Shown piece after piece: positions 42,421 through 61,268 of a stretch of 64,000 bases of DNA. Position numbers and translations under genes: made by a program. The DNA is taken from contig NZ_CP145607.1 of assembly GCF_036884275.1 (NCBI RefSeq), positions 1,785,001 to 1,849,000 on the forward strand, written 5' to 3'. This stretch comes from Sphingomonas kaistensis (GTDB lineage: Bacteria; Pseudomonadota; Alphaproteobacteria; Sphingomonadales; Sphingomonadaceae). Below the pieces are notes generated by a model, which searched no databases, was not told the DNA's origin, and saw only the letters and a program-made list of their open reading frames with translations. Positions within the stretch are counted from its first letter, which is position 1. Each line of letters begins with the position of its first letter.

Positions 42421-42440
42421 ACTTGCGTAATCAAACCCAC
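42421..42440 (+). promoter_or_regulatory. Shared 20-bp motif, site F (thiolase operon)
   Basis: ACTTGCGTAATCAAACCCAC, 20 bp before the thiolase ATG. It matches the motif at 53674-53693 in 16 of 20 positions. One of six sites of this motif found in front of transcription units of the 42-61 kb region. Confidence 0.55.
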
Positions 42441-42460
42441 TCCGATTGGGGCAGACGCAA

Positions 42461-43687
42461 ATGGTTTACGTGCTTGGCGGTTGGCAGAGCGACTTCGGAC
42501 GCAACTGGACACGCGAAGGGCTCGATATCGCCGGAGCCTTTTTCGAAGCGTTGAACCATGGTCTGGAAGCGACCGGCCTCGAGCCCAAGGATATCGAAAC
42601 GGGCCACGTCGGCAATTTTGTCGGTGAGCTGTTCGCGGGGCAGGGGCTGCTCGGCGGTTTTTTCGGATTGGTGCATCCCGATCTCGACGGCCTCCCGACG
42701 TCGCGGCACGAGGCGGCCTGTGCAAGCGGCAGTGTCGCGATCCTCGCGGCGACGGCGGAGATCGAGGCCGGGCGCTACGACCTCGCCTGCGTGCTCGGGA
42801 TCGAGCAGATGCGCAACGTGCCGGGCAAGACCGCGGCCGAGCATCTCGGCGCGGCGGCGTGGACGGGCTATGAGTTCGGCGATGCCGCCTACGTTTGGCC
42901 GCGGGCGTTTTCCGATCTGGCGGAGGAATATGACACCCGTCACGGGCTGAAATACGAGCATCTGATGCGGATCGCCGAGATCAACTTCGGCAACGCCAAG
43001 CACAACCCCAACGCGCAGACCCGCAAATATGGCTTCACCGACAAGAGCTTCACCGCCGACGACGAGGCCAATCCGATTGTCGAAGGGCGGACCCGCAAGA
43101 TGGATTGCGGGCAGGTGACCGACGGCGCGACCGTGATCTTCCTCGCGTCCGACGAACGCGCGCGGCACTATGCCCGGGAGCGCGGCATTCCGTTGTCGAG
43201 CCTGTCGCGTATCAGCGGCTGGGGCCACCGCAGCGCGCCGATCGCCTACGACCACAAGGTCAAGGCGAGCGCCGGCCAGCCCTATGTCTTCCCGCAGGTC
43301 CGCCGCGCGATCGAGGACGCCCGGCGCCGCGCGGGGGTCAAGCTCAAGGACATTTCGGCGGTCGAGACCCACGACTGCTTCACCGCCACCGAATATATGG
43401 CGATCGACCATCTGGGCCTGACCGCGCCCGGCGAAAGCTGGAAGGCCATCGAGGAAGGCGTGATCGAGATGGGCGGCGCGTGCCCGATCAATCCGTCGGG
43501 TGGCCTTATCGGCCTCGGCCATCCGGTCGGCGCAACGGGCGTCAGGATGCTGCTAGACGCGCACAAGCAGGTGACGGGCACGGCGGGCGACTATCAGGTC
43601 GAGGGCGCTAAACGCGTCCAGACGCTGAATATCGGCGGATCGACCACCACCACCGTCAGCTTCATCGTCGAGCAGGCAGCTGCCTGA
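42461..43687 (+). CDS. Thiolase of the SCP-2/acetyl-CoA acetyltransferase-like type
   Basis: A 408-residue thiolase-fold protein. It has the nucleophile Cys in EAACASGSVAIL, the HDCF motif (THDCFTATEYMAI) typical of SCP-2-type thiolases, and the His in GGLIGLGHPVGATG. Such enzymes cut a 3-oxoacyl-CoA to acetyl-CoA and a shortened acyl-CoA. The ATG at 42461 follows GGGGCAG; a TTG 15 bp upstream is less likely. First gene of an operon (next ATG overlaps its stop by 1 bp) and preceded by site F of the shared motif. Confidence 0.87.
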   Translation: MVYVLGGWQSDFGRNWTREGLDIAGAFFEALNHGLEATGLEPKDIETGHVGNFVGELFAGQGLLGGFFGLVHPDLDGLPTSRHEAACASGSVAILAATAEIEAGRYDLACVLGIEQMRNVPGKTAAEHLGAAAWTGYEFGDAAYVWPRAFSDLAEEYDTRHGLKYEHLMRIAEINFGNAKHNPNAQTRKYGFTDKSFTADDEANPIVEGRTRKMDCGQVTDGATVIFLASDERARHYARERGIPLSSLSRISGWGHRSAPIAYDHKVKASAGQPYVFPQVRRAIEDARRRAGVKLKDISAVETHDCFTATEYMAIDHLGLTAPGESWKAIEEGVIEMGGACPINPSGGLIGLGHPVGATGVRMLLDAHKQVTGTAGDYQVEGAKRVQTLNIGGSTTTTVSFIVEQAAA

Positions 43688-44193
43688 TGATTGGTCGGCG
43701 GCATCTGCTCGCCCTTCTTGCCGCCCTTCCCCTTGTCTCCGTTCCAGCCTTTGCGAGGAAACCAGCCATGACCCGAATGCAGCAGTTCCAGGCCGTCATC
43801 GATGGGTGGAAGCGCAAGGACGTCGACTTCGTCCTGAGCCAGATGACCGACGACGTGGTGTGGCATTACGCCGCCGCGATCGCCCCGGCGGCAAAGGGCA
43901 AGGATGCGGCGCGCGCCTTCATCGACCAGTTCGGCAAGAACATCGGCGAGGTCCGTTGGCGGATCTTTCATCATGCCGAGGTCGGCGACCGCCTGTTCGT
44001 CGAGGGCGTCGACGAATATGACACCAAGGACGGCATCGTGATCGCCGCGCCTTATGCCGGGGTGATCGAGTTTCGCGGCGACAAGATCAGCGGCTGGCGC
44101 GATTATGTCGATCGGGGCGTGATCGAAGCCCAAAAGGCCGGCGGCGGCTGGAGCGATCAGGTCAGGGAGCTGGTGGGGCGGCCGGCGCAATGA
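43687..44193 (+). CDS. Exported NTF2-fold protein (limonene-epoxide-hydrolase-like)
   Basis: A 168-residue protein with a signal peptide (RRHLLALLAALPLVSVPAFA) and an NTF2/SnoaL-type domain. The C-terminal segment GDKISGWRDYVDR resembles limonene-1,2-epoxide hydrolase, but the Arg of the R-x-D catalytic pair is not where expected (EGVDEYD), so hydrolase activity is doubtful. It sits between the thiolase and CoA-ligase genes, overlapping them by 1 and 4 bp. Confidence 0.78.
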   Translation: MIGRRHLLALLAALPLVSVPAFARKPAMTRMQQFQAVIDGWKRKDVDFVLSQMTDDVVWHYAAAIAPAAKGKDAARAFIDQFGKNIGEVRWRIFHHAEVGDRLFVEGVDEYDTKDGIVIAAPYAGVIEFRGDKISGWRDYVDRGVIEAQKAGGGWSDQVRELVGRPAQ

Positions 44194-46007
44194 CGGTGGC
44201 CGAGGAAGAGCGCGTTGGCACAGATAGCGACTGGCGTTCGGCGCCGTTTCGCCATGCCGAGTTCCTGCCGGTCGATCTCGACCTCAATCGCGACGCCGAC
44301 GGCACGATCCGGCTGACCACCAATCACCCCTATCAGCCGATCGACGGCAATCTGGCGCGCGCCTTTTTCGCGATGGCAGAGACGAAGGGCGACGCGCCGG
44401 CGCTGGCCGAGCGCGAGCCCGCCGGCGAATGGAAGGCGACCAGCTTTCGCTATCTCGCCCGCGACGTGCGCGGAGCAGCGCAATGGATGATCGACCACCT
44501 GCCGCCGCGCGGCGTGCTGGTGATCATGGCCGAGAACAGCGTCGCGGTCGCGACCATGACCTTTGCCGCCTTTGCCACGGGGCGGATCCTGTGTCCGGTA
44601 AGCCCGGCCTATGGCGTCGCCGGCGGCGATCACGCCCGGCTTCGGCACGTGTTCGCCAAGGTCAAGCCGGCGGCGATCTTCCTCGATCCAAAGGCGCCGT
44701 ACGCCAAGGCGCTGAAGGAGATCGGAGCCGATTGCCAGATCATCTCGACCGATCCGTCGGTATTCGGCAACGCAGCCGTTGCCTATGCCGACGCGATTGC
44801 AACCGAGCCGACGCCTGCGGTCGACGAGGCCGTCGCGGCGGTCGATCCGTCGGCCACCGGCTCCTACATGATGACCAGCGGGTCAACCGGTTTGCCCAAG
44901 GTGGTCGAGCAATCACTCGACGCACTCGCCGCCAATACCGCGCAGGGGATCGGCCTGATCGGCCGCGCCGCCGGGTGGGATGACGAGATGCTCGACTGGC
45001 TGCCGTGGCACCATGCTGCGGGCGCGTCGGTGCTGCGCGCGGGGCTGATGCTGGGCGGCACGCTGCACATCGACAGCGGCAAGCCGGCGCCCGGGCTGTT
45101 CGAGCGCTCGATCGACAACCTGCGCAGCAAGAGCGTCGCTTACTTCAACAACGTGCCGCTCGGCTACGCGATGCTGGTCGATGCGATGGACCGCGACCAG
45201 CAGTTGCGCGACACCTTCTTCGCGAAGATGCGGTTGATGCTCTACGGCGGCGCAGGCCTGCCGCAGCCGGTCTACGACCGCCTTCAGCAGCATGCGGTCG
45301 CCGCCACCGGGCACCGCGTCCACATGACTACCGGCTATGGCATGACCGAGACGGTGTCGGGCTGCTGCGCGATCCATTTCGAAACCGACAAGGTCGGGAT
45401 CGGGCTTCCGGGCCCTGGCGTCGACATCAAGCTGGTACCCAACGGCGCGCGTTACGAAGTGCGTCTCAAGGGCCCGATGCTGATGAGCGGCTATCTGGAC
45501 GAACCGGAGAAGACCGCCGCGGTGTTCGACGAGGACGGCTATTACCGGACCGGCGACATGGCGGTGTTTCATGACGAAGCGCATCCCGAACAGGGCCTCG
45601 CCTTTGCCGGGCGGATGGCCGAGGAATTCAAGCTCACCAACGGCACCTGGGTCTATGGCGGGCAGCTGCGCGAAGCGCTGCTGAAGGCGCTGTCGCCGCT
45701 GGTCACCGAGATCGTGCTGGCGGACGACAATCGCCCGTTCCTGACCCTGCTGGTGTGGCCCAAGGCCGACGCGCCGGCGGACCTGCTGGACCAGCTCGTC
45801 CAGCGCCTGCGCGACTTCAACGCCGGTCAGCAGGGTGGGTCGGCGACGATCCGGCGGGTGGCGATCATGACCAGCCCGCCGTCGGTCGATGCGCACGAGA
45901 TTTCGGACAAGGGCACGATCAACCGCCGCGCGGTGCTCGATCACCGCAGCGACCTCGTCGAGCAGCTTTATGCCGACACGCCGGGGCCCGGCGTCGGGGT
46001 GGTCTGA
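44190..46007 (+). CDS. Feruloyl-CoA-synthetase-like acyl-CoA ligase
   Basis: A 605-residue adenylate-forming enzyme that should activate an aryl or other carboxylic acid with ATP and CoA. The phosphate loop is YMMTSGSTGLPKVVEQS, the next motif MTTGYGMTETVSG, and the hinge region YYRTGDMAVFHDE. Overall sequence (N-terminal NHPYQPIDGNL, ITRTA-like DALAANTAQGIGLI region) resembles feruloyl-CoA synthetases; that substrate is only a guess. Third gene of the 42461 operon. Confidence 0.85.
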   Translation: MTVAEEERVGTDSDWRSAPFRHAEFLPVDLDLNRDADGTIRLTTNHPYQPIDGNLARAFFAMAETKGDAPALAEREPAGEWKATSFRYLARDVRGAAQWMIDHLPPRGVLVIMAENSVAVATMTFAAFATGRILCPVSPAYGVAGGDHARLRHVFAKVKPAAIFLDPKAPYAKALKEIGADCQIISTDPSVFGNAAVAYADAIATEPTPAVDEAVAAVDPSATGSYMMTSGSTGLPKVVEQSLDALAANTAQGIGLIGRAAGWDDEMLDWLPWHHAAGASVLRAGLMLGGTLHIDSGKPAPGLFERSIDNLRSKSVAYFNNVPLGYAMLVDAMDRDQQLRDTFFAKMRLMLYGGAGLPQPVYDRLQQHAVAATGHRVHMTTGYGMTETVSGCCAIHFETDKVGIGLPGPGVDIKLVPNGARYEVRLKGPMLMSGYLDEPEKTAAVFDEDGYYRTGDMAVFHDEAHPEQGLAFAGRMAEEFKLTNGTWVYGGQLREALLKALSPLVTEIVLADDNRPFLTLLVWPKADAPADLLDQLVQRLRDFNAGQQGGSATIRRVAIMTSPPSVDAHEISDKGTINRRAVLDHRSDLVEQLYADTPGPGVGVV

Positions 46008-46033: not shown

Positions 46034-46831
46034 ATGGTTTGGTCGTTGCTAGTGGCGAATGCCGTCATTCTGGTGCTGTGTTTCGTCGTGCTGTGGGCGC
46101 TGTGCCTGAAAGGCAAGGACGTCACCCCGGTCGACAGCTTCTGGGCGTTCGGCATGGTCGTGATGGCGATCAGCAGCTACTTCCTCGCCGACGGGCTGCA
46201 TGAGCGCAAATTGCTCTTACTCGGGCTGTGCGCCCTGTGGGGCATCCGGCTCGGCAGCTACATGCTGTGGCGATGGCGCGATCATGGCGGCGACCGGCGT
46301 TATGTCGCGTTGCTCGGCAAAGCCGAAGCACAGCGCGGGTGGAGCTTCGCCAAGGCGTCTGCGCTGCTGGTGTTCGCGACGCAGGCGCCCTTGCTGTTCA
46401 TCGTCTGCCTGCCGGTCCAACTGGGGCAGGTCGCCACGCAGCCGCCGCTCGGCACGCTGGCATGGGTCGGCGCGGCGCTCAGCTTGTTCGGCATCGCCTT
46501 CGAGACGATCGGCGACGCGCAACTGGTGCGCTTCAAGCGCGATCCCGCCAACCAGGGCCAGGTGATGACCAGCGGCCTGTGGCGCTACACCCGCCATCCC
46601 AATTATTTCGGCGATGCCTGTGCCTGGTGGGGCATGTACCTGATCGCGGCGGAGACCGGCCCGGGCGTGTGGAGCTTCATCGGCCCGGCGCTGCTGACCT
46701 GGACACTGATAAAGTGGTCGGGCGCGCCGACGGTCGAGCGGAAGATGACCAAGACCAAGCCCGGCTATGCCGATTACGTGGCGCGGACCTCGGGCTTCGT
46801 GCCGTGGCCGCCTAAGCGTTCCGCCGCCTAG
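46034..46831 (+). CDS. DUF1295 membrane protein (steroid 5-alpha-reductase-like C-terminal fold)
   Basis: A 265-residue inner-membrane protein with about seven hydrophobic segments. The C-terminal signature WRYTRHPNYFGDACAWWGMYL marks the DUF1295 / isoprenylcysteine methyltransferase and steroid reductase superfamily. It may act on a lipophilic substrate (sterol-like, terpenoid). It starts 26 bp after the ligase gene and its last 4 bp overlap the convergent NTF2 gene. Confidence 0.88.
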   Translation: MVWSLLVANAVILVLCFVVLWALCLKGKDVTPVDSFWAFGMVVMAISSYFLADGLHERKLLLLGLCALWGIRLGSYMLWRWRDHGGDRRYVALLGKAEAQRGWSFAKASALLVFATQAPLLFIVCLPVQLGQVATQPPLGTLAWVGAALSLFGIAFETIGDAQLVRFKRDPANQGQVMTSGLWRYTRHPNYFGDACAWWGMYLIAAETGPGVWSFIGPALLTWTLIKWSGAPTVERKMTKTKPGYADYVARTSGFVPWPPKRSAA

Positions 46832-47214
46832 CGGCCGAACGCCCTGAGCTTCGCGCCTGCCGCGCTGTCGATATATTCGTCGAGGCGTGTGATCTTGCCG
46901 TCCTTCATCTTGACCACGACGCAGGCATCCATCTTCCACGGCGTGCCGTCGGGCAAGGTCGCGGACAGGACGTGCTGCTGGACGAAACCGTCCTTCAAAG
47001 GCTCGCGGCGCAGGACGGTGTATTGGCGGTCGGGGAGGGTGCGGATGAACCACTCCAGCACCTTCACATTGTCGTCGATCGTCTGTTCCACGCCGTCGGT
47101 GTTGTGCCAGATGACCCCGCCCGGCGCGTAGCAGGCGCGCATGCGGTCGGCGTCGCCCTGCTGGACGGCATCGACGAAGTCGGCGGCGAAGGCTTCGATT
47201 TCCTGTTCGGTCAT
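46828..47214 (-). CDS. NTF2-fold (SnoaL-like) protein
   Basis: A 128-residue cytoplasmic protein with the cone-shaped NTF2 fold pattern (FAADFVDAVQQGDADRMRACYAPGGVIWHN at the start, VVVKMKDGKITRLDEYID near the end). The R-x-D catalytic pair of epoxide hydrolases is missing. Last gene of a four-gene operon in which each start overlaps the previous stop by 4 bp. Confidence 0.83.
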   Translation of the reverse strand: MTEQEIEAFAADFVDAVQQGDADRMRACYAPGGVIWHNTDGVEQTIDDNVKVLEWFIRTLPDRQYTVLRREPLKDGFVQQHVLSATLPDGTPWKMDACVVVKMKDGKITRLDEYIDSAAGAKLRAFGR

Positions 47215-48143
47215 GCGGGAGTTCCTGTGTTGAGAAGGCGGGCGCGACCCTCATTCCAGCCGCGCTCGAGTTGATCGACGATTGTCGCGACGGGCTCGAT
47301 CGCCGTCACCGCGTGGAGTCCCTGTCCAGCCGACCACACGTCGCGCCAGCGCGCGCCGGTCGGGGCGGAATAATCGCGCTTAGCGGGACTATCGAGATGG
47401 TCGATGTCGTAACCGGCTTGGGCCAGCGAAGGCTTGAGCCAGGAGGCGGCCGTGCCGGTGACGGCGGGGCTGACCAGAAGATCGCTCGCGCTCGATGCGA
47501 TGACCATGGCCTTGTAGCCCTCGCTGGCGCGGCTCTCTTCGGCGGCGAGAAAGCGCGTGCCCATGTAGACGAGGTCGGCGCCCGCCGCGACCGCGCCCGC
47601 CACCGCCGCGCCCTCGGCGATCCCGCCGCCGAGGCAGACGATGCCGTCGAAAAAGCTGCGCAGCACGGCGAGGAAGCTGAAGGGTGACAGGCTGCCAGTA
47701 TGGCCGCCGGCGCCTGCTGCGACCGCGACCAGCCCGTCGGCGCCGGCCGCCGCCGCCTTGCGTCCGAGCGTCTCGCTGACGACGTCGGCGAGGACGATAC
47801 CGCCATAGGCATGCACCGCTTCTACCACCGGGGCCGGGCTGCCGAGCGCGGTGATAACGATGGGCGGCTTATGCTTTGCGACCAGTGCGAGGTCGTCGGC
47901 GAGGCGCGGGTTGGTCGAATGAGTGACGAGGTTGGCGGCCCACAGGCCCGGTGCGTCGGCGCAGCCCGAGGCGATCTCTTCCATCCAGCGGTCGAGTTCA
48001 TCGGCGGTGCGGCAGTTGGGCGTCGGAAAGGCGCCAACGATGCCATTGCGGGCGGCGGCGATCACCATCTCCGGGCCGGTGACGAGGAACATCGGCGCGG
48101 CGACGACGGGAAGGCGGAGGCGGGCGAGCAGGGGGTGGGTCAT
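47211..48143 (-). CDS. Nitronate monooxygenase family protein
   Basis: A 310-residue FMN-dependent TIM-barrel protein. Evidence: LRLPVVAAPMFLVTGPEMVIAAARNGIVG at the N-terminus, AAGAGGHTGSLSPF (the active-site His segment), and CLGGGIAEG with GADLVYMGTRFLA (phosphate-binding). Homologues oxidise nitronates or reduce enones; in catabolic clusters like this one the second is possible. The long open frame upstream of 48143 is a shadow of the thiolase gene; the ATG at 48141-48143 overlaps that gene's stop by 4 bp. Confidence 0.86.
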   Translation of the reverse strand: MTHPLLARLRLPVVAAPMFLVTGPEMVIAAARNGIVGAFPTPNCRTADELDRWMEEIASGCADAPGLWAANLVTHSTNPRLADDLALVAKHKPPIVITALGSPAPVVEAVHAYGGIVLADVVSETLGRKAAAAGADGLVAVAAGAGGHTGSLSPFSFLAVLRSFFDGIVCLGGGIAEGAAVAGAVAAGADLVYMGTRFLAAEESRASEGYKAMVIASSASDLLVSPAVTGTAASWLKPSLAQAGYDIDHLDSPAKRDYSAPTGARWRDVWSAGQGLHAVTAIEPVATIVDQLERGWNEGRARLLNTGTPA

Positions 48144-49285
48144 GCCAGCCGCTCCACCACCATCGCCGCGCCTACACCCTGCGCGCCGGTCGCGACGACC
48201 ACTCCGATGGTCTCGTCGGCGGCCTCGAGCACGTCGAGCAGGGTGGAAAGGAGGATCGCCCCGGTCGCGCCCATCGGGTGGCCCTTGGCGAGGTGCCCGC
48301 CCGAGGCGTTGACCCGGGACTCGTCGATGCGGCCTTCGCGCAGGAAGCGGGCGATGACGACGGCGAAGGCTTCCATGAACTCGATCCGGCCGACGTCGGC
48401 GAGCGTGAGGTTGGTGGCGGCGAGCACCTTGTCCAGCGCGGCGAAGCCCGCGGTCAGGCTGTCGCGCGGATCGCCGCCGGCTTCGGCATAGCCGAGGATC
48501 TTCGCCCGCGCGCCGCTGCCGTCCCTGCCGACCAGGGCGAGCGCGGCGCCGTCGGCCATCGGCGGGGCGTGGGCGACGGTGTGGCGGTGGTCGATCGCCT
48601 GCGCCTCCAGCGGCCCGGCATAAGCGCCGGCCATCGCGGCGAAGGCAGGGGGCAGAGCGGCGAGTTTTTCGCTGGTGGTCGGGCGGACGGCTTCGTCGCG
48701 CGCAAACTCGCCGATGGCAATCCGCGACCGCTGAAACGCCGCGTTGCTTTCGGCAGCGGTGGCAAGGGTCTGGGAACGCAGGGCGGCGGCGTCCAGCGCG
48801 GCGCGATCGATACCTTCCTTCTCCGCAAGCAGGTCGGCGGCGAGGGCGACCGGAATGTAGCGTAGTCGCGGTTCGAACTCGGTCGCTTCGTAATAGCTCG
48901 CGCGGTCGGCCATGAAGGGCACGTGACTCATCATCTCGACCCCGCCGGCGAGCGCGCGGTCGAGCTGCCCCGCCTTGATGGAGGCGGCGGCCTGGCCGAT
49001 CGCGCTCAGGCCCGAGGCGCAATAGTTGTTGAGCGTGTGCGTGACGGTGCTGTCGGGGAGCCGGCTGGCAAGCTTGGCGACCATGCCGAGGTGGCCGCCC
49101 TGCGCACCGACCTGGCCGACGCAGCCGAGCGTCAGGTGATCGACCCGCCGCGCCTCACTGCCGCGCTGTTCCAGCGCCTCGACGAGATGGGCGACGAGGC
49201 CGTGCGGGGTTTGGCCGGCAAGACCGCCATCGGGCCGGGCCTTTCCGCGCGGGGTGCGGACGGCGTCATGGATAAAGACGGTCAT
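48140..49285 (-). CDS. Acetyl-CoA acyltransferase (thiolase) with two replaced catalytic residues
   Basis: A 381-residue thiolase. The acyl-accepting Cys is present (LNNYCASGLSAIGQ) and so is the His (GGHLAKGHPMGATGA). However, the NEAF asparagine is Met (EFMEAFAV) and the C-terminal CxGGGxG cysteine is Val (VVATGAQGVG). Lacking the second Cys, it may have another condensing or cleaving chemistry, or act poorly. The ATG at 49283-49285 fits the family start MTVFIHDAVRTPRG. Second gene of the 50322-46828 operon. Confidence 0.87.
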   Translation of the reverse strand: MTVFIHDAVRTPRGKARPDGGLAGQTPHGLVAHLVEALEQRGSEARRVDHLTLGCVGQVGAQGGHLGMVAKLASRLPDSTVTHTLNNYCASGLSAIGQAAASIKAGQLDRALAGGVEMMSHVPFMADRASYYEATEFEPRLRYIPVALAADLLAEKEGIDRAALDAAALRSQTLATAAESNAAFQRSRIAIGEFARDEAVRPTTSEKLAALPPAFAAMAGAYAGPLEAQAIDHRHTVAHAPPMADGAALALVGRDGSGARAKILGYAEAGGDPRDSLTAGFAALDKVLAATNLTLADVGRIEFMEAFAVVIARFLREGRIDESRVNASGGHLAKGHPMGATGAILLSTLLDVLEAADETIGVVVATGAQGVGAAMVVERLA

Positions 49286-50322
49286 GCGGCGCTCCACGCA
49301 GCGGGCGGGCGATAGGCGAAAAAGCCGGGCGGGGCGGCGATGACGTCGGGAATGGCGCGGACTGCGACCGCGACGACCGCATCGGTCAGCGCGCGCGAGG
49401 GCGGCATGGCGGGATCGGCTTCGGTGATGTCGAGGGTCATCGTAATGGCCGGGCGGCCGGTGATTTCGATCTTCCAGTGGCCGAGCTTGTCGGGGCCGTG
49501 CAGCGACGGGTCGGCGGTCCACAGGATCGACATCAGAATTTCGGGGCCCGCTTGGGTCAGCGCCGTCCAGCGCCATTCGGTGGCAGCGACGCGGCCTTCC
49601 TCGATCTGGCCGGAGGCGATGGTCAGCGGCTTAGGCGCCAAGGTGAGTCGGTGGTCGGGACGGATCTCGCGGACGCTCGTGCCGAGCTCAGCCGCGGCGA
49701 AATGCAGCACCTCGGAGAAGAGCTGGCCGTAAAGGTCGGCGAGCGGCCCCGAGCGGATGTCGGCGGCCGCGGGATCGCTGTTGAAGCCCATCAGGCCGAA
49801 CACGAAGTCGGGCGAGGTCATGGCCGAAGCGTCGACCGTCTCGAATACCGCCAAGCGCTCGAGCTCGTGACTCATCGCGGTTGCGGCCAGCGCCAGCCGC
49901 TCAACGATCAGCCCAGGGTTCACGCCGACCCCGGCGAGGGTCGCGCCACCCTTGATCGCCGCGTCGTGCAGGCGGCGGACATAGTCTTCCCCATGCGCCT
50001 GCGGAAAGTGAAAGCCCGCGACCGAGATGATGTTCTTGCCGCTCCTGAGCAGCGCGGCGACGTCGTCGACAAGCGCGTCATAGGGAAGCGTGATGCGCGG
50101 CATGTGGAGGACCAGGTCGGCATCGAGGTCGAGGATCTGCTGACGGTCGTTCGTGGCGGCGACGCCGATGGGATCGCGCCGCGCGATGGCGCCAAGATCG
50201 TTGCCGTTCTTCCGAGCGCCGTAGACGAAGCCGCCGACGAGTTGATGGCGGGGATCATCCAGGATCCGGCGGATCGATGTCCGCCCCATCGACCCCGTTG
50301 CCCATTGCACAATTCTGGCCAC
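49282..50322 (-). CDS. DapB-like NAD(P)-dependent dehydrogenase
   Basis: A 346-residue Rossmann protein related to dihydrodipicolinate reductase and amine dehydrogenase-like enzymes. The start VARIVQWATGSMGRTSIRRIL gives the nucleotide loop, and GVGVNPGLIVERLALA lies in the middle. It is clearly not the lysine-pathway DapB (too long). The GTG at 50320-50322 begins the Rossmann fold; the frame extends further upstream with no homology. First gene of a four-gene operon (dehydrogenase, thiolase, nitronate monooxygenase-like, NTF2-like), with shared-motif site A in front. Confidence 0.82.
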   Translation of the reverse strand: MARIVQWATGSMGRTSIRRILDDPRHQLVGGFVYGARKNGNDLGAIARRDPIGVAATNDRQQILDLDADLVLHMPRITLPYDALVDDVAALLRSGKNIISVAGFHFPQAHGEDYVRRLHDAAIKGGATLAGVGVNPGLIVERLALAATAMSHELERLAVFETVDASAMTSPDFVFGLMGFNSDPAAADIRSGPLADLYGQLFSEVLHFAAAELGTSVREIRPDHRLTLAPKPLTIASGQIEEGRVAATEWRWTALTQAGPEILMSILWTADPSLHGPDKLGHWKIEITGRPAITMTLDITEADPAMPPSRALTDAVVAVAVRAIPDVIAAPPGFFAYRPPAAWSAA

Positions 50323-53766: not shown

Positions 53767-54255
53767 ATGCAGACGTTGGCGAGGAATTCCCTCCTGTTGC
53801 TGGCGGCATGTTGCCTGCCCCAGGCGGCCGCTGCCGCCCCCACAGCAAAACCAGCCAAGGAGAGTCGCATGAGCCAGGATCCCGTCCAAGTCGTGATGCA
53901 GATGATCAAGGCGTGGGACGACCGCGACGGTGACAAGATCGCCGACCTGTTCACCGAGGACGGCGTACTCCATTCGATGATGATCGACCCGATCAAGGGT
54001 CGCGAGAACATCCGCCCGCGGATGAAATTCCTGGTCGACAATGCAAGCTACATGAAGATCGAACCGCGCAACATTGCGGTCAAGGGCAACACGGTCTTCC
54101 TCGAACGGACCGACAATTTCACCTTCAAGGGTCACAGCGGCAAGGTGCCGGTGGTCGGCGTGCTCGAAATTCGCGACGGCAAGGTCGCCGAGTGGCGCGA
54201 ATATTACGACCGCAAGGAATTGCTGGAGGCGATGGGGGTCGGCGAGGACTTCTAG
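53767..54255 (+). CDS. Exported limonene-1,2-epoxide-hydrolase-like NTF2-fold protein
   Basis: A 162-residue protein with a signal peptide (LLLLAACCLPQAAAA) and a limonene-epoxide-hydrolase-type domain. Here the catalytic set looks complete: Arg and Asp in LERTDNFTF (R-x-D) and the second Asp in WREYYDRKEL. It may open an epoxide of the imported substrate in the periplasm, or bind it. Export of such a protein is unusual. ATG follows AGGAGG; the MFS gene starts 15 bp after its stop. Confidence 0.82.
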   Translation: MQTLARNSLLLLAACCLPQAAAAAPTAKPAKESRMSQDPVQVVMQMIKAWDDRDGDKIADLFTEDGVLHSMMIDPIKGRENIRPRMKFLVDNASYMKIEPRNIAVKGNTVFLERTDNFTFKGHSGKVPVVGVLEIRDGKVAEWREYYDRKELLEAMGVGEDF

Positions 54256-54270: not shown

Positions 54271-55587
54271 ATGCTCAGCCCCGAACCGCCAGCCGCCACC
54301 GCCCAGCGCAATTCGCTTGGCGCCTGGTTGCTGCTCGCCGCCCTGTTCGTCGCCTATATTGTCAGCTTCGTCGACCGGATGATCATCGGCCTGCTGGTCG
54401 ATAGCATCAAGGCCGACCTCGGGATCAGTGATACGCAGGTCAGCCTGCTGCAGGGTCTGGCCTTCGCGTTGTTCTTCACGCTGGCGGCCATTCCGCTCGG
54501 CCGGCTGATCGACCGGGTCCACCGCCCGCGCGCGGTATCGGCGGGGATCGCGCTGTGGAGCGCGATGACGGTGGCATGCGGCTTTGCGACCAGCTTCGCC
54601 GGCTTGTTCGTCGCGCGGATGGGCGTCGGGGTCGGCGAGGCGGTGCTGTCGCCGGCCGCCTATTCGATGATCTCCGACAGTTTCGATCGCCGCCGCCTCG
54701 GCCTTGCCATGGGCGTGTTCGGTCTGGGGTCGGCGATCGGGGCGGGGCTGGCGTTCATGATCGGCGGGGCGGTGGTGTCACTGGTGGCGGGCGCCGACAG
54801 CGTTTCGATGCCGCTGATCGGCGAGGTGCGGCCGTGGCAATTCGCCTTTATCGTCGCGGGGCTTCCGGGCTTTCTCATCAGCCTGCTGTTCCTGCTGATC
54901 CGTGATCCCAGTCATGCCATGGGCGCCCGCGCGCCGGCGTCGAGCGTGCGTGAGGTGCGCGAGCATCTTCGCCGCAATGCCGGGTTCTTCTGGTCAGTGT
55001 TTCTTGGCGTGGCGGCGGTCAACCTGTCGGTGCTCGGCACCGTCAACTGGCTGCCCGCGATGCTGGTGCGCGGGGGTCGGCTGGCGCTGGCCAATGCGGG
55101 CTTCCTGTCGGGCGCGATGCTGATCGCGGGCGGGCTGATCGGCATGATCGGCTTCGGCGCGCTGATGGACCGGCTGAGCGGCGGCACGCCGGCCTCGCGG
55201 ATGCGCTTCTGCGGCTGGTCGGTGTCGATCGCAGTGCTCGCTGCCGCGGCCTTTCCTTTGGTCGAATCCCTGTGGCTGATGGCGGCGCTGTTCATCGCCT
55301 TCTTCTCGGCCGCGGCCGGGGTGGTAAGCGCCGCGCCCTCGGTGCTCCAGCAACTCTCGCCCAGCGGGATGCGCGCCACCGTCGCCGCACTCTACGTCTT
55401 TATCATCAATCTCGTCGGAATCGGCTTCGGGCCCAGCGTCACGGCAGCACTGGGCGACGCCTTGTTCCCGGGCGGCGATGGCATCCGCTATGCGATGGCG
55501 ATCGTCGCGCCCGCCGGATATGCGATTGGCGCCGCACTCTTTTTCGTCGCCGCGCGGCACGCCGCCCGCTCGACCCCGGAGATGTGA
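54271..55587 (+). CDS. MFS transporter (spinster-like)
   Basis: A 438-residue inner-membrane transporter with twelve hydrophobic segments. The MFS signature loop is present after TM2 (PLGRLIDRVHRPRAVSAG), and the first TM has VAYIVSFVDRMIIGLL, typical for the group of organic-anion importers common in sphingomonad catabolic clusters. It probably imports the substrate taken in by the TonB receptor at 58815. It shares a transcript with the preceding NTF2 gene. Confidence 0.87.
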   Translation: MLSPEPPAATAQRNSLGAWLLLAALFVAYIVSFVDRMIIGLLVDSIKADLGISDTQVSLLQGLAFALFFTLAAIPLGRLIDRVHRPRAVSAGIALWSAMTVACGFATSFAGLFVARMGVGVGEAVLSPAAYSMISDSFDRRRLGLAMGVFGLGSAIGAGLAFMIGGAVVSLVAGADSVSMPLIGEVRPWQFAFIVAGLPGFLISLLFLLIRDPSHAMGARAPASSVREVREHLRRNAGFFWSVFLGVAAVNLSVLGTVNWLPAMLVRGGRLALANAGFLSGAMLIAGGLIGMIGFGALMDRLSGGTPASRMRFCGWSVSIAVLAAAAFPLVESLWLMAALFIAFFSAAAGVVSAAPSVLQQLSPSGMRATVAALYVFIINLVGIGFGPSVTAALGDALFPGGDGIRYAMAIVAPAGYAIGAALFFVAARHAARSTPEM

Positions 55588-55608: not shown

Positions 55609-56547
55609 ATGAACGCCCCGACCCTGATCCGAACCTGTTCCGTTTGGCGCGCCCTCGAAGTCGTCGGCGATACGCCGATTCTGCTGATCCTCGAAGCGAG
55701 CTGGCTCGGCGCGCGCAAATATGACGAACTGCGCAGCCGCACCGGCCTGTTGAACGCGCTGCTGTCGGACCGGCTGAAGCGGCTGGTCGCAGCGGGGCTG
55801 ATGGAGCGGCAACTCTATTGCGAGCGGCCGCCGCGCTACGCTTATGTGATGACCCCGAAGGGGCGCGACGTTTACTGGACCTCGCTGATGATGCTCCGCT
55901 GGGAGCAGAAATGCGGCGAGACGCGCAACAAGATCAGTGTCGTGCTGACCCACAAGACCTGCGGCCAGCAGTTCGCGCCCGAGCCCGCCTGCGGCAGTTG
56001 CGGCGAGACGATCGACGCGACCGAGGTCGAATGGAAGGAAGGGCCGGGCGTCGGCCTGATGGCGCCGCTTTACAGCCGCCGCCGCCAGCAGCGCGGGTCG
56101 AGTGCGGGCGCGACCTCGCTGCTCGACCAGGCGGCGCAGCTGATGGGCGACCGCTGGGCGAGTCTGATCATGCGCTCGATCTTCACCGGGATCACCCGGT
56201 TCGAGGATATCCGCCTGGACACCGCCATGGCGACCAACATCCTGACCGAGCGATTGCAATGGCTGCAGTCGGTCGGGGTGATCCGCCAGCGGCCCGATCC
56301 GTCGTCGCCCGGGCGCAACGAATATCGAGTCACCCGCAAGGGCGTCGAATATTTCCCGGTGCTGCTGATGCTGCTGCGCTGGGGCGACCAATATTATGTC
56401 TCGCCCGAAGGCCCTCCGCTGCTGCTGACGCATAAAGTCTGCGGCAATCCGCTCGATCCCAAGGTGGTCTGTTCGGAATGCCGCAAGCCGCTGAAACCGG
56501 ACGAGGTCGATTACAAGGTGATCGAGCAGGCGCCGGACGTCAGATAA
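55609..56547 (+). CDS. Duplicated HxlR-type winged-helix regulator with two zinc ribbons
   Basis: A 312-residue protein made of two similar halves. Half 1 has a winged helix (TCSVWRALEVVGDTPILLIL ... DELRSRTGLLNALLSDRLKRL) followed by a zinc-ribbon-like motif HKTCGQQFAPEPACGSC. Half 2 repeats this (AAQLMGDRWASLIMRSIF ... TNILTERLQWL, then HKVCGNPLDPKVVCSEC). HxlR proteins normally have one winged helix and dimerise; this one may act as a built-in dimer. It is the only regulator in the catabolic region and its stop codon lies within the left flank of site C, so it is the best candidate to bind the shared motif. Confidence 0.88.
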   Translation: MNAPTLIRTCSVWRALEVVGDTPILLILEASWLGARKYDELRSRTGLLNALLSDRLKRLVAAGLMERQLYCERPPRYAYVMTPKGRDVYWTSLMMLRWEQKCGETRNKISVVLTHKTCGQQFAPEPACGSCGETIDATEVEWKEGPGVGLMAPLYSRRRQQRGSSAGATSLLDQAAQLMGDRWASLIMRSIFTGITRFEDIRLDTAMATNILTERLQWLQSVGVIRQRPDPSSPGRNEYRVTRKGVEYFPVLLMLLRWGDQYYVSPEGPPLLLTHKVCGNPLDPKVVCSECRKPLKPDEVDYKVIEQAPDVR

Positions 56548-56548
56548 T

Positions 56549-56568
56549 ACTTTCATTATCATACTGAC
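56549..56568 (+). promoter_or_regulatory. Shared 20-bp motif, site C (SDR operon)
   Basis: ACTTTCATTATCATACTGAC, 16 bp before the SDR ATG and directly after the regulator stop. It is flanked to give GTCAG at 56539-56543 and CTGAC at 56564-56568, an inverted pair 20 bp apart. This site is the nearest to the consensus. Confidence 0.65.
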
Positions 56569-56584: not shown

Positions 56585-57463
56585 ATGGCTGAAGATCAGG
56601 GCGGCCGCGTCGCCGTCGTCACCGGAGCGGGAAATGGCCTCGGCGCCGCCTTTGCGAAGGCACTAGGCGGCAGTCACCGGGTCGTCGTGAATAATCGGGT
56701 GCATGCCGATCGGCCGCACAGCGCGGTGGCGGTGGTCGAGCGAATCGAGGCGGCGGGCGGGAGTGCTATTGTCGAGGGCAGCGCGGTCGACCGGGAGGGT
56801 GCGCCGGAAGCGATCGTCGCGGCCGCGCTGGAGGCTTTCGGCAGGCTCGACACCTTGGTCCTCAACGCCGGCGTCAGCGGGCCGGCGACGAAGGTAGGCG
56901 AGGGCGACACCGGCCTTGCCGAAGTCATGCGGATCAATTTCTTCGCCAATGTCGCGCTGGTCGAGGCGGCTCTCCCGGCGCTTCGCGACAGCCCGGCCGG
57001 GCGAATCGTTTTCGTGTCCTCGACCGGAGGGCTGCACGGGGTGCGCGGGCGCGCGGCCTATTCGGCATCCAAGGGGGCCTTGAATGCTTGGGCGCTGAGC
57101 CTCGCCGACGAGCTTCGCCGCACTGCGATCCGTGTCAACGTGATCGCGCCTTATGCGGCGACCAACATGACGGCGCGGCCGGACCGTGTGCCTGACAAGC
57201 GGCTGTCACCGAAGGGTGCAGCCGACGCACTGGTTGCCTTGTGCAGTCCCAAGTGGAACCGGACCGGCGACATCTGGGTGGCGGGCGCCGGCCATGTCCG
57301 GCCTGCGCGCGCGCTCGAAGGTCCGGTCGCGCGGGTCGCGACGCTGCCCGAACAGGCCGACACTTTGGCCGGGTTCGAACGAGGCACGGGTTTTGCCGGC
57401 GGGGAGGCGGCGTTTGCCGATTTCTACGCGCGCGTGACGCAAATGGAGGAGCAAAAGGCATGA
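56585..57463 (+). CDS. SDR family oxidoreductase
   Basis: A 292-residue short-chain dehydrogenase. Cofactor loop TGAGNGLGAAFA, LNAGVSG, catalytic Ser in FVSSTGGLHG and YSASK. The C-terminal extension after about residue 235 (PEQADTLAGFERGTGF) is like that of the multifunctional-type SDRs in beta-oxidation of bulky acids. Overlaps the next SDR gene by 4 bp; site C lies just upstream. Confidence 0.88.
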   Translation: MAEDQGGRVAVVTGAGNGLGAAFAKALGGSHRVVVNNRVHADRPHSAVAVVERIEAAGGSAIVEGSAVDREGAPEAIVAAALEAFGRLDTLVLNAGVSGPATKVGEGDTGLAEVMRINFFANVALVEAALPALRDSPAGRIVFVSSTGGLHGVRGRAAYSASKGALNAWALSLADELRRTAIRVNVIAPYAATNMTARPDRVPDKRLSPKGAADALVALCSPKWNRTGDIWVAGAGHVRPARALEGPVARVATLPEQADTLAGFERGTGFAGGEAAFADFYARVTQMEEQKA

Positions 57464-58206
57464 AGATCGAAGGGTGCGTCGCGCTGGTGACAGGCGGCAA
57501 TCGCGGTATCGGCAGGGGATTCGTCCAGGAATTGCTCGAAGCCGGCGCAGCGAAGGTCTATGTCGCCGCGCGGCAGCTGGCCGATGCCGAGGAAGCGGCC
57601 AAGGCCGATCCGCGACTGGTGCCAATCCAGCTCGACGTCACCAAGCCGGAGGAGATCGCAAGCGCGGCGCAGACCGCGACCGACCTCACCTTGCTGATCA
57701 ACAATGCCGGCGCGTTCAACAACGTCACCCTGCTCAACGCCGAAGACGATCGCGCGATGCGGCAGGAGATCGAGACCAATTACCTCGGCCCCGTCGCGAT
57801 GATCCGCGCCTTTGCGCCCATCATGGAAAAGAACGGCGGCGGCGCGGTGGTGAATGTGCTGTCGGCGGGCGGGATCGTCGCGGTGCCCAACATGGGCGGC
57901 TACAGCCCGTCCAAGTTCGCGATGCGCGCGGCGAGCGACTGTCTGCGTGCCGAGCTCGCGCCGATGAACATTACCGTCCACGCGCTGATCGTCGGCTCGG
58001 TCGACACCCGCATGGCGAGCCACGTCACCTGGCAGGAGAAATCTTCGCCGCGCGCGATCGGCAAGGCCGGCCTCACCGCCGTCACGCACAATATCGACGA
58101 GCATGACACCGACCCTCATGCGGTGTCGGTCCGCGCGTTCCTGGCCCGCGATCCGCATACGCTCAAGACATCGATGGCCGCCTCGATCGGCCGCGGGAGG
58201 AAGTGA
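57460..58206 (+). CDS. SDR family oxidoreductase
   Basis: A 248-residue short-chain dehydrogenase with TGGNRGIGRGFVQEL, INNAGAFNN, Ser in VLSAGG and the active site YSPSK. The ATG at 57460 overlaps the upstream stop (ATGA); the longer open frame upstream is a shadow. Second gene of a three-gene operon SDR-SDR-SnoaL. Confidence 0.88.
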   Translation: MKIEGCVALVTGGNRGIGRGFVQELLEAGAAKVYVAARQLADAEEAAKADPRLVPIQLDVTKPEEIASAAQTATDLTLLINNAGAFNNVTLLNAEDDRAMRQEIETNYLGPVAMIRAFAPIMEKNGGGAVVNVLSAGGIVAVPNMGGYSPSKFAMRAASDCLRAELAPMNITVHALIVGSVDTRMASHVTWQEKSSPRAIGKAGLTAVTHNIDEHDTDPHAVSVRAFLARDPHTLKTSMAASIGRGRK

Positions 58207-58736
58207 TGGCGCATATCAACACCGTCGAGACCATGCTGGCGCGGCAGGACATTCACGACGTGATGATGCGCTATGCGCGCGGCATCGACCGCGGCGACGA
58301 GGAGCTGCTGCTGAGCTGCTATTGGGACGATGCGATCGAGGTGCACGGACCCGCGTATGAAGGTCCGGCCGTGCCCTATCTCAAAGGCGCGGCGCAGCGG
58401 ATGAAAGCCAATGGCACGACGATGCAGCATTTCGTCGGCAACGTGCACATCGACTTTGCCGGCGACGACACCGCCTGGGTCGAAAGCTACATCCTGACCT
58501 TTGCCCGCTTTCCCAAGGATGGCGAACCGTGCGACACGCTGACCGGCGCGCGCAGCTTCGACAAGTTCGAGCGGCGGAACGGCGAATGGCGGATCGCGCA
58601 CCGCCGCGCGATCTTCGACTGGAACCGCGACCAGCCCTCGTCCGAAGGCTGGTGCATGGGGCTGTTCGATACGGCGCACAAAAACATGACCATGGGGGCC
58701 AAGGCGCCCGATGATCTCAGCTACACGCGCGACTGA
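58206..58736 (+). CDS. SnoaL-like NTF2-fold protein (PF13577 type)
   Basis: A 176-residue cytoplasmic protein: LARQDIHDVMMRYARGIDRGDEELLLSCYWDDAIEVHG is the standard N-terminus of the SnoaL_4 family that includes dehydratases and ring-hydroxylating-like beta subunits; WRIAHRRAIFDWN closes the fold. The function in this pathway may be isomerase or dehydratase. The ATG is preceded by GGGAGGAAGTG. It ends the operon before a strong terminator. Confidence 0.85.
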   Translation: MAHINTVETMLARQDIHDVMMRYARGIDRGDEELLLSCYWDDAIEVHGPAYEGPAVPYLKGAAQRMKANGTTMQHFVGNVHIDFAGDDTAWVESYILTFARFPKDGEPCDTLTGARSFDKFERRNGEWRIAHRRAIFDWNRDQPSSEGWCMGLFDTAHKNMTMGAKAPDDLSYTRD

Positions 58737-58796: not shown

Positions 58797-58814
58797 GCCT
58801 GAGTTGACGAAGGC

Positions 58815-61184
58815 TCAGAATTTGACGGCGATCTCCGCTCCGTAGGTGCGCGGAGCACCCAGGCGCGAAGCTTCGTCGCCGAAGAAGGCAATGGCGTTCA
58901 CGCGGTAGAGCTTGTCCGTCAGATTGCGGCCCCAGACCGAGAAGGTGAGGTCGGGATTGGGGCTGACCGATACGCGCGCGTCGAGCAGGCCGTAGCCGGG
59001 CTCGTTGGCGCTGCCTTCGGGGTTCCAGCTCAATTTGCCCTGGCGGTTGTAATTGATGTTGGCCGTGAAGCCGTTCTGCCAAGTGCCGAGGTCGGTCGTG
59101 TAATTGGCGCCGACGTTGAACTGGTAACGCGGGGTACGCTGCAGGAACTTGCCGTCGTTCACGTTGCCGACCGAGTCGGTAAACTTGATGTATTTGGTGT
59201 CGAGCAAGGTCAGGCCGCCGTTGAGGCTCAGCCCACGGAACAGGGCAACGGTGGCTTCCGCTTCGATCCCCTTGATCTTCGCGTCAGCGGCATTGTCGGT
59301 GATGTTGCACAGGCAGACCTGCGAGGTCTGGGTGACCTGCAGATTCTTGTAGCGCATCGAGAAGGCGGCGATGTTCAGCCGCGCGCGGCGATTGAACAGG
59401 TCGAGCTTGGCGCCGACTTCGTAGCTTTCGACCTTTTCGGGATCGTAGCTGGTGCGCGCCGCGACATCGTTGGCGGGATCGTCCTCGAAGCCGCCGCCTT
59501 TGTAGCCGGTCGAGAAGGTTGCGTAGAGCAGGACGTTGCGGTTTGCCTTGAATTCGACCGTGGCTTGCGGGGTCAGCTGGCTCCACGTGTCCGAATAGTC
59601 GGTCGTGTAACCGCCGCCCTCGCGATAGGTGGACGACAAAGGCGAAGCGGGAATGATGTCGTTCGGGTTGAACTTGTCACCCGTTTCGACCGCCAGGCCC
59701 GTGACCCGGCCGCTCTTCTTGTCGTGCGAATAGCGAAGCCCGCCGACGACGCGGAGCTGCGGGCTGAAGCGATAGCCGAGCTGGCCGAACACCGCATAGG
59801 ATTCGTTGCGGCCGCGGTTGTCCCACGCGGATTCGCCGTTGAGCGTCGGGAGCGGTGGGGTCAGGATTTCGAAGCTGATGGTATCGTTCTTACGGATCCG
59901 GTCGCGTTGAGCGTAGACGCCGGCGATCCAGTCGAAGCCTCGATCGGTGACCTTGGGCGAGACCAGGCGGATTTCCTGGCTCAACTGCTTGATCCGCTCC
60001 AGCTCCCGAACCGGGGAACGGAACAGCAGGGGAATGGAAATGCCGTAGGCATTGCTCGGTCCGATGCCGGTCTGGTCGTAGCGGTTGAAGCCGTTGCCCT
60101 GGCGATAGCCGGTGATCGAGGTCAGCGTGGCAAAGCCCTCGAACTCCTGTTGCAGGTTGAGCGTCAGGCCCCACGCCTTGCGGCTCAAGGCTTGCGGGCT
60201 GGGATAGGCATCGCCTTTGTAGGTGTTCCAGTCGGGCAGGCTTTCGCGGACCGACAGGCCGCCGCGAATGGCGGCGACGCGGGCGCGGGCCGTGCTCCAC
60301 GGGCCGGCGCCCGGGGCGGGACCGTCGACCACCACCGAGTGGAAGCCATTTGCCTTGTCGCGGGTGTAGTCGGCGATCAGGCGCGCCGCGAAGGTGCTGC
60401 CGGCGGGGCGATATTCGACCTGGCCGCGCATCTGAATGCTGTCGACATTGTCGAGATCGACGTCGTGCGCGATGTCCTGATTGAAGCCGTCGCGCTGGCG
60501 CACCTGAAAGGCGAAACGGCCGTTGAGGCCCTCGCTGAGTGGGCCGGTCAGGTGGCCCTTGACCAGCTTCTCATTGTAGTTGCCGTAGCCGGCGGTCATG
60601 CTTCCGCCGAAGACCGACTTGGGCGCCGCGCTGTAGATGCTGACCGCGCCGCCGACCACGTTGCGGCCGAGCAGCACGCCCTGCGGCCCACGGATCACCT
60701 CGACACGATCGATGTCGTAAAGGTCGAAATTGAAGAGGCCCGAGCGACCGACATAGACGTCGTCGACGAAGATTCCGATCGACTGGTCGGCGGTCGGCGA
60801 ATCGAGGCGCGTGTTGGTGATCCCGCGGACGTTGAACTCCTGGTCGAGCGGCGACAGCGCGGTGAACGACAGGGATGTCGCCTGGCCGGCCAGATCCTCG
60901 AAGCTCAGCACCCGGCTTTCTTCAAGGTCGGCACCGCCAAAGGCGCTGATCGCGGCCGACGTGTCCTGAAGCCGCGTGCTGCGACGCTGGGCAGTGACGA
61001 TGATGTCGGAAACCTGCGGCCCGGTCGGTTCTTCCGCGGCCACCGGCGCTGGTGGTGCGGCGGTTTGCGTTTCTTCGACCGGATCGCCCGCAGGCTGTGC
61101 GGCAGTGCCGGCGGTTTGTGCCGCGGCAGGTTGGCTGAGCGCGACGGCCAATGCCATCAGCGAGGTTGCATAAACGGTTCGCAT
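58815..61184 (-). CDS. TonB-dependent receptor of the catabolic cluster
   Basis: A 789-residue outer-membrane receptor: signal peptide ending at PAAAQ, TonB box VSDIIVTAQRRSTRLQDT (typical of the sphingomonad catabolic receptors), plug with SIGIFVDDVYVGRSG and DRVEVIRGPQGVLLGRN, and a barrel with the final strand TYGAEIAVKF ending in Phe. It is smaller than the sugar receptor at 23843 and is of the type tied to hydrophobic or aromatic substrates. Motif site D lies 64 bp upstream of its ATG. Confidence 0.93.
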   Translation of the reverse strand: MRTVYATSLMALAVALSQPAAAQTAGTAAQPAGDPVEETQTAAPPAPVAAEEPTGPQVSDIIVTAQRRSTRLQDTSAAISAFGGADLEESRVLSFEDLAGQATSLSFTALSPLDQEFNVRGITNTRLDSPTADQSIGIFVDDVYVGRSGLFNFDLYDIDRVEVIRGPQGVLLGRNVVGGAVSIYSAAPKSVFGGSMTAGYGNYNEKLVKGHLTGPLSEGLNGRFAFQVRQRDGFNQDIAHDVDLDNVDSIQMRGQVEYRPAGSTFAARLIADYTRDKANGFHSVVVDGPAPGAGPWSTARARVAAIRGGLSVRESLPDWNTYKGDAYPSPQALSRKAWGLTLNLQQEFEGFATLTSITGYRQGNGFNRYDQTGIGPSNAYGISIPLLFRSPVRELERIKQLSQEIRLVSPKVTDRGFDWIAGVYAQRDRIRKNDTISFEILTPPLPTLNGESAWDNRGRNESYAVFGQLGYRFSPQLRVVGGLRYSHDKKSGRVTGLAVETGDKFNPNDIIPASPLSSTYREGGGYTTDYSDTWSQLTPQATVEFKANRNVLLYATFSTGYKGGGFEDDPANDVAARTSYDPEKVESYEVGAKLDLFNRRARLNIAAFSMRYKNLQVTQTSQVCLCNITDNAADAKIKGIEAEATVALFRGLSLNGGLTLLDTKYIKFTDSVGNVNDGKFLQRTPRYQFNVGANYTTDLGTWQNGFTANINYNRQGKLSWNPEGSANEPGYGLLDARVSVSPNPDLTFSVWGRNLTDKLYRVNAIAFFGDEASRLGAPRTYGAEIAVKF

Positions 61185-61248
61185 GGTCTCCCCTCCAGTA
61201 TCGCGCCAGGTGCAACAGCAGACTGTTCGACGCTGTCAGCATCGTCCA

Positions 61249-61268
61249 GTCAGTTCGATAATGCAAGA
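61249..61268 (-). promoter_or_regulatory. Shared 20-bp motif, site D (TonB receptor)
   Basis: On the minus strand TCTTGCATTATCGAACTGAC, 64 bp before the TonB receptor ATG. It matches site C in 16 of 20 positions and site E in 15 of 20. Confidence 0.6.

Follow-up and report, generated by a model that had tools for sequence, protein, structure and literature searches.

Regulators of the HxlR/DUF24 family, a MarR-type group that includes HxlR, YodB and HypR, share the common Pfam family PF01638 and a winged-helix fold, and the known members have one domain of about 100-150 amino acids (aa), act as homodimers on symmetric sites and mostly answer oxidants, quinones or formaldehyde. Single-domain MarR/DUF24 proteins in general bind inverted repeats as dimers, and a built-in pseudo-dimer of two winged-helix domains in one chain is known from SarS of Staphylococcus. 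The cluster-situated repressors of sphingomonad catabolic pathways are encoded inside the cluster that they control and have operators before each transcription unit including their own. For the redox-sensing MarR-type regulator SydR, PMC11633110 gives the perfect repeat TATCGCGATA. Here we describe six copies of a 20-bp motif, and a two-domain (tandem) HxlR protein proposed to read them, in a 64,000-nucleotide stretch of the Sphingomonas kaistensis chromosome (contig NZ_CP145607.1, positions 1,785,001 to 1,849,000; the whole stretch is called the window and its numbering is used throughout). The protein shares with the family its Pfam match, its fold and an N-terminal cysteine in domain 1, whereas it differs in its two diverged domains within 312 aa, a His-Cys-Cys-Cys ribbon after each, a predicted asymmetric site and its place in an 18-kb cluster of coenzyme A (CoA) ligase, thiolase and oxygenase genes.

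We propose that the six sites are operators of the cluster's own tandem HxlR, which as a built-in pseudo-dimer would repress the cluster genes. We give this explanation as a whole a probability of about 0.86, and within it binding, repression, the inducer and the assignment of domains to half-sites are what we infer. The original prediction had listed six 20-mers lying 8-64 bp before gene starts and always oriented towards the gene; all six are present at their coordinates and on their strands (Table 1), the distances to the likeliest start codons, read from the sequence and the frames of the open reading frames (ORFs), span exactly that range and 6/6 sites point at their gene. A weight matrix built from the six sites scores them at 25-34 bits and nothing else in the window above 11.7 bits, a gap of more than 13 bits. 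With leave-one-out matrices the omitted site ranked sixth of six equally high places for five sites and first for the other. On the whole chromosome (one contig of 2,789,997 bases) the IUPAC pattern WCTTKCRYWAHHRWAYNNAS has six exact matches, all in the cluster, so that the frequency check did not refute the motif. One further match has one mismatch and 15 have two, and since the 22 matches with up to two mismatches compare with 29 for the reversed-pattern control there is no excess of the pattern outside the cluster.

The same matrix from the six window sites alone was used for conservation, gene assignment, orientation and the loci without sites. It was applied to 80 named loci, the 80 best among 96 obtained by scanning GTDB genomes with the HxlR alignment, which were chosen solely for carrying a tandem HxlR; some of them share genomes with a set of 396 genomes of the order (G labels) that was searched separately. 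They span Sphingomonas, Qipengyuania, Blastomonas, Caulobacter, Phenylobacterium, Maricaulis, Hyphomonas, Kordiimonas, Stappia, Pseudovibrio and others including a few gamma- and betaproteobacteria. At thresholds of at least 14, 16, 18 and 20 bits there were 248, 212, 157 and 109 matches in 73, 71, 63 and 55 of the 80 loci, compared with means of 15.4, 4.2, 1.0 and 0.2 (maxima 46, 14, 4 and 3) for 40 column-permuted matrices. The motif is thus kept in related clusters far above permuted controls. Two of the six sites, 53674-53693 (ACTTGCGCAATCGAACGGAC) and 53739-53758 (ACTTTCATAACAATATTTAG), are poorer fits to the earlier consensus. Chance resemblance, which could point to two weak matrix scores among the six, is refuted by the 157 matches at 18 bits or more against a permuted mean of 1.0, as well as by the separation within the window and the confinement on the chromosome, and its probability is negligible.

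The matches also lie in front of the expected genes. Of the 233 sites that score at least 15 bits, 194 are followed within 400 bp by a codirectional window-gene homologue, namely the DapB-like dehydrogenase (36), the short-chain dehydrogenase/reductase SDR1 (28), thiolase A (26), the TonB-dependent receptor (22), ligase B (22), the RPE65-type oxygenase (16), DUF1295 (11), SnoaL_B (10), thiolase B (10), the HxlR gene itself (6) and others (7); four more are inside genes. When the 204 sites of at least 16 bits were sorted by orientation, 121 pointed only towards codirectional window-gene homologues, 56 lay in divergent regions, eight were near neither and two were inside genes. The 1065 matches of 20 permuted matrices, for which the cut was lowered to 12 bits so as to yield enough matches, were divided into 108 same, 90 opposite, 58 divergent, 528 neither and 281 inside. 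Eight loci (L186, L189, L190, L192, L196, L198, L200 and L202) have no site at 15 bits, and each has a variant site, ACTATTATAAMCATACCAWA or ACTTCTATAACCATACCAAT, close upstream of RPE65.

Within the 396 genomes of the order near-full-length two-domain matches of the tandem HxlR occur at 55 places in 52 genomes, one of them (in G293) with an in-frame stop, and none was found in the 26 other genomes of its genus among those searched. We read 40 stretches of up to 20 kb, around 37 of the 55 places and one lone site. All 16 cluster genes are present again in G105 and G068 and elsewhere most of them, partly rearranged, with RPE65, thiolase A and the tandem HxlR recurring most often. Sites precede the matching genes in these relatives (thiolase, DapB-like, RPE65, ligase, SDR and TonB) even where gene order differs, including the DapB-like orthologs in L083 and L085. 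Judged from the sequences, the sites are confined to the cluster and kept before orthologous genes, as in a single-cluster regulon.

The duplicated HxlR had been named as the likely reader, and this is supported by the way in which the motif tracks tandem HxlR genes across many genera. In the 396 genomes the exact pattern has 77 matches, of which 18 (six being the window's own) have a tandem HxlR gene no more than 15 kb away; the remaining 59 compare with 71 in the reversed-pattern control and by this hand count are background. For the comparison of tandem with single-domain genes, and for the pooled motif, the GCTA-box analysis and the rhizobial, Streptomyces and Cupriavidus scans below, we used a matrix refined on L123-L202. 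An iterative refinement of the motif, which collects its own matches and is circular, served for description only. In AT-rich loci, with up to 4.2 matches per shuffle at 13 bits, weak matches mean little. Sites of at least 17 bits lie near 85 of 116 tandem HxlR genes (120 less one without any weak match and three near-copies) compared with a single match in 30 congeneric single-domain HxlR loci (95.8 kb), although the figure of 85 is partly circular and flattering because many of these tandem loci had gone into refining the matrix. Three plasmid loci of Agrobacterium, Rhizobium and Aminobacter (L203, L204 and L206) encode tandem HxlRs of 32-34% identity among molybdenum-hydroxylase-type (xanthine/CO-dehydrogenase-type) or ABC-transporter genes unrelated to the window cluster. 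Their best sites score 22.1, 23.5 and 19.1 bits, compared with permuted bests of 7.5-8.9 on average and 15.6-17.9 at most, and lie upstream of the HxlR gene (L203, L206) or of a neighbouring gene (L204). A tandem-HxlR locus on a Streptomyces plasmid reaches 20.1 bits. Because the motif follows the tandem HxlR gene even beside unrelated neighbours and hardly follows single-domain HxlR genes, the tandem protein is its most likely reader; it is also the sole regulator found in a Pfam scan of the cluster ORFs.

The three rhizobial loci appear as a separate regulon with the same predicted operator. In addition, seven loci of Phenylobacterium and other alphaproteobacteria (L136, L138, L143, L149, L150, L158 and L170) have a second tandem HxlR adjoining the first, 36-38% identical where shown, and in several of them its own site, ACTTGCATAGAAAGACTGTC or near-identical, lies upstream of DUF1295. 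In sites of this type AAGAC replaces ATAC in the right half, alongside an ARSLL helix in the N-terminal domain. On the chromosome of S. kaistensis itself the one-mismatch site ACTGGCATTAACGTACTTAC at chromosome positions 645191-645210 (L007 position 1501) reaches 20.9 bits with the refined matrix. It has on one side a TonB-receptor gene, from which it points away, and on the other an infC-like gene (identified by eye), and may be a seventh site or chance.

The protein itself is one chain that matches PF01638 in two stretches with 104.9 bits (cut-off 20.8), and as the family norm is one domain per chain and a homodimer we class it as a two-domain variant of the HxlR/DUF24 family. An AlphaFold2 model from an alignment of 35 sequences (mean predicted local distance difference test score 86.5, predicted template modelling score 0.85) has two HxlR domains, with three short strands after each. 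These strands hold H115, C118, C128 and C131 after the first domain and H275, C278, C288 and C291 after the second, and look like zinc ribbons. In 121 tandem proteins H115, H275, C288 and C291 are invariant and C118, C128, C131 and C278 are kept in 119, 118, 118 and 90. In domain 1 the residue aligned with Cys14 of YybR/HypR is Cys10, a position held by cysteine in 97/121 tandem proteins; no equivalent was seen in domain 2 in the alignment of tandem HxlRs. The closest solved folds are the HxlR-like PA1607 (2f2e) and PA1374 (4gcv) of Pseudomonas, each of which has only one copy of the unit present twice here, while SarS (1p4x), which belongs to a different family, is a weak match at Foldseek rank 32 (E 0.012, root-mean-square deviation 15.6). 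Two-domain HxlR proteins also occur in Caulobacter, Phenylobacterium, Kordiimonas, rhizobia, some gamma- and betaproteobacteria and Streptomyces.

Pooling 158 unique sites gives the motif T-N-ACTTKCATWANCATACYNA with weak A/T flanks, which forms an imperfect inverted repeat about position 9 (r 0.60, a value that 24 of 1000 column shuffles attain). From the aligned sites the element is best described as an asymmetric inverted repeat and not merely a 20-bp word. A direct repeat (ACTTKC ... ACYNA, 14 bp apart), attractive in the six window sites, was rejected, as 709 of 1000 shuffles reach its symmetry in the 158. Between motif positions 4 and 14 there are 10 bp, one helical turn, which measures about 34 Å on standard B-DNA. 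In DNA-bound HxlR the recognition helices are 34.8 Å apart (PMC7835342). Nine of 117 tandem proteins have a best site in which the left half deviates (ACTATTAT or ACTTCTAT) and the right half is unchanged. In these nine a helix of the C-terminal domain is altered, reading GAVPNTLS(S/D)RL or GAAPAILSDRL instead of (I/M)ATNILSERL. All nine fall on one side of one branch (one change) in a quick tree of all 117; because they make one event and the N-terminal wing has changed too, they are only suggestive of which domain reads which half. A G at site position 14 requires seven changes on the same tree.

Symmetric look-alikes of the half-sites are seen near single-domain HxlR genes, ACTTGCATTATGCAATC in L267 and GGTATCAAAACAATACT in L216, but palindromes of either half were not clearly above permuted expectation: left-half palindromes were present at 4/26 class loci (permuted mean 0.27, maximum 4) and 0/30 congeneric loci, and right-half palindromes at 4/26 class loci (mean 0.68, maximum 6) and 2/30 congeneric loci (mean 0.40, maximum 6). 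The congeneric single-domain loci L210, L212, L214, L216 and L217 share a GGTAT-N7-ATACC-like palindrome resembling a doubled right half, which is likewise not clearly above chance. As a tentative extension, which we hold to be possible and no better than that, tandem HxlRs would form a widespread single-chain class with a hybrid operator of fixed centre, in which the C-terminal domain reads the ACTTKCAT half and the N-terminal domain the ATACY half, and in which Cys10 senses a reactive aldehyde-type pathway product, the inducer thus being supplied by the cleavage oxygenase itself.

The mechanism that we propose would be as follows. The two winged-helix domains in one chain would act as a pseudo-dimer, each reading one half of an imperfect inverted repeat of about 21 bp centred on position 9, and the site would be asymmetric with a preferred orientation to the gene because the two domains have diverged. 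The protein would repress the 16 cluster genes including its own operon and be released when a pathway compound appears. The most attractive candidate inducer is a reactive compound that would be formed in the RPE65-type cleavage and sensed at Cys10, with an aldehyde as a guess; the conserved Cys11 is the sensing residue of HxlR (PMC7835342). Repression is proposed because some of the sites overlap probable promoter elements or a ribosome-binding site, and autoregulation because the SnoaL-MFS-HxlR operon (MFS, major facilitator superfamily) contains the HxlR gene. At this operon site 4 touches the probable ribosome-binding site, which the bound protein would contact. Site 5 is immediately 3' of the HxlR stop codon. 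Site 2 lies within the divergent promoter region common to the DapB-like gene and the CoA ligase at 50447, which has no site in its own orientation and may be served by site 2 too.

Behind 249 sites a GCTA box begins 0-9 nucleotides (nt) downstream 39 times, compared with 0-9 times in other 10-nt bins, and the related word KYTAS peaks at 3 nt with 30 occurrences. The Caulobacter RpoD consensus is TTGaCgS at -35 and GCtANAWC at -10 (PMC8144410), and given this consensus and the GCTA phasing the motif, and with it the bound protein, would cover the -35 region and spacer in SDR-type promoters. Close position upstream of starts, preferred orientation and boxes at fixed spacing in a subset are also what a promoter element would have, for example the -35/-10 pair of an alternative sigma factor. 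The motif is however confined to one cluster on the chromosome, its distances to the start vary from 8 to 64 bp with the nearest sites too near the start codon for a promoter, a separate -10-like box follows it in the subset, and it has inverted symmetry, which together make a promoter element highly improbable.

A number of observations weigh against operators of a repressing tandem HxlR. Many of the loci come from kindred genomes and the counts are not independent events; 35 of the 233 sites have no window-gene homologue behind them, and 17 of the 204 face a homologue in the opposite orientation only. The inverted symmetry is only moderate, and the phased GCTA box occurs in a minority of sites so that overlap with -35 is indicated for a subset. 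A Cupriavidus tandem-HxlR locus has no matrix site (best 7.6 bits, permuted mean 7.7), although the look-alike word ACTTCAATAKAYGAACYWTR was found by eye three times among its best places. The strong site ACTTTCATAACTATACTAAC (L115, G061:C1 at about 2637821; 26.3 bits) has no tandem HxlR homologue within its 20-kb stretch, while that genome carries one elsewhere. When site positions were paired with protein positions by mutual information, the recognition helices did not stand out and the top ranks went mostly to positions outside them, as expected if relatedness dominates. Finally three of 26 single-domain HxlR loci elsewhere in the class (L264, L265 and L267) hold five matches of at least 17 bits, which score 18-27 bits and are in part nearly symmetric, like that in L267 already mentioned, as though made of two copies of one half, so a word like this one may also be read by some single-domain relatives. 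The last two results would fit sites read by another protein, global, unlinked or a single-domain HxlR, that controls the same kind of pathway, the more so as binding by the tandem protein is deduced from sequence. We consider this very unlikely, as sites accompany the tandem HxlR gene even in the three rhizobial loci, where the adjoining genes are unrelated, the pattern does not exceed background away from tandem-HxlR loci, and the Pfam scan of the cluster ORFs revealed no further regulator.

The sign of regulation is not settled by the family, since B. subtilis HxlR itself is activated to bind. The tandem HxlR could accordingly read its sites as an activator, as B. subtilis HxlR does at its target: formaldehyde raises both DNA binding and transcription activity of HxlR via Cys11 (PMC7835342), and the alignment of Cys10 with the YybR/HypR cysteine and its frequency in tandem proteins would suit such a role. 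Site 4 however ends 8 bp from a start codon at the probable ribosome-binding site, the GCTA-phased sites cover -35 and spacer where an activator would normally lie upstream of -35, and the distances from site to start vary, all of which renders activation unlikely and favours repression.

The genes of the cluster were identified by Pfam and NCBIfam searches with some starts read from the sequence (Table 1). Compared with solved structures the RPE65-type oxygenase is nearest to a carotenoid 9,10-dioxygenase (215 bits) and next to a lignostilbene dioxygenase (169 bits), and it scores far below the NCBIfam cut-offs. A tRNA-Arg(CCG) gene at 61861-61937 lies just past the TonB end of the cluster, the guanine and cytosine content of the cluster (0.66) is the same as that of its flanks and no pair of HxlR domains in one frame was seen in 40 other genomes of the genus; because of the adjoining tRNA gene and this absence the cluster may be a laterally gained block. 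On the Cupriavidus necator plasmid pENH92 (L205) genes for a carotenoid oxygenase, ligase, nitronate monooxygenase, thiolase, SDR and aldehyde dehydrogenase surround a tandem HxlR, and the aldehyde dehydrogenase would fit an aldehyde product.

Table 1 Putative operators and genes of the cluster in window coordinates, with the relation of each site to its gene or the basis of each gene assignment
Feature	Position	Strand	Relation or basis
Site 1, putative operator	42421..42440	+	20 bp upstream of thiolase A start (ATG 42461)
Site 2, putative operator	50380..50399	-	57 bp upstream of DapB-like start (GTG 50322)
Site 3, putative operator	53674..53693	-	43 bp upstream of RPE65-type oxygenase start (ATG 53630)
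Site 4, putative operator	53739..53758	+	8 bp upstream of SnoaL-MFS-HxlR operon start (ATG 53767)
Site 5, putative operator	56549..56568	+	16 bp upstream of SDR operon start (ATG 56585)
Site 6, putative operator	61249..61268	-	64 bp upstream of TonB-dependent receptor start (ATG 61184)
Thiolase A (PRK06289 type)	42461..43687	+	Pfam/NCBIfam; start from sequence
SnoaL-like protein	43687..44193	+	Pfam
Acyl-CoA ligase A	44190..46007	+	Pfam/NCBIfam
DUF1295 membrane protein (reductase-like)	46034..46831	+	Pfam
Nitronate monooxygenase-like	47211..48140	-	Pfam; start uncertain
Thiolase B	48140..49279	-	Pfam/NCBIfam; start uncertain
DapB-like dehydrogenase	49282..50322	-	Match slightly under Pfam cut-off
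Acyl-CoA ligase B	50447..52120	+	Pfam/NCBIfam; start from sequence
RPE65/carotenoid cleavage oxygenase family	52128..53630	-	Pfam and comparison with solved structures
SnoaL/LEH-like protein (start signal-peptide-like, by eye)	53767..54255	+	Pfam
MFS transporter	54271..55587	+	Pfam
Tandem (two-domain) HxlR regulator, proposed reader of the sites	55609..56547	+	Pfam HxlR, two stretches
SDR 1	56585..57463	+	Pfam
SDR 2	57475..58206	+	Pfam; start uncertain
SnoaL_4 protein	58203..58736	+	Pfam
TonB-dependent receptor	58815..61184	-	Pfam

HxlR-family regulators are already known, and what is new here is the predicted operator of a two-domain variant and not a new kind of system. In a keyword search of the open-licence literature we found no HxlR linked to a carotenoid oxygenase, no tandem or duplicated HxlR, no operator or function described for two-domain HxlR proteins, no HxlR-family paper with both binding site and palindrome, nothing joining this gene set and no HxlR case among the cluster-situated catabolic repressors of sphingomonads. 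Two-domain HxlR proteins are common and now have a predicted binding site and, around a carotenoid-oxygenase-type enzyme, a predicted regulon of 16 genes. The site allows genomes to be scanned for further members of the pathway, and the effect of domain duplication on the reading of DNA becomes open to study. If the hybrid operator is true, the change from a symmetric to a directional HxlR site would be explained by the domain having duplicated and then diverged.

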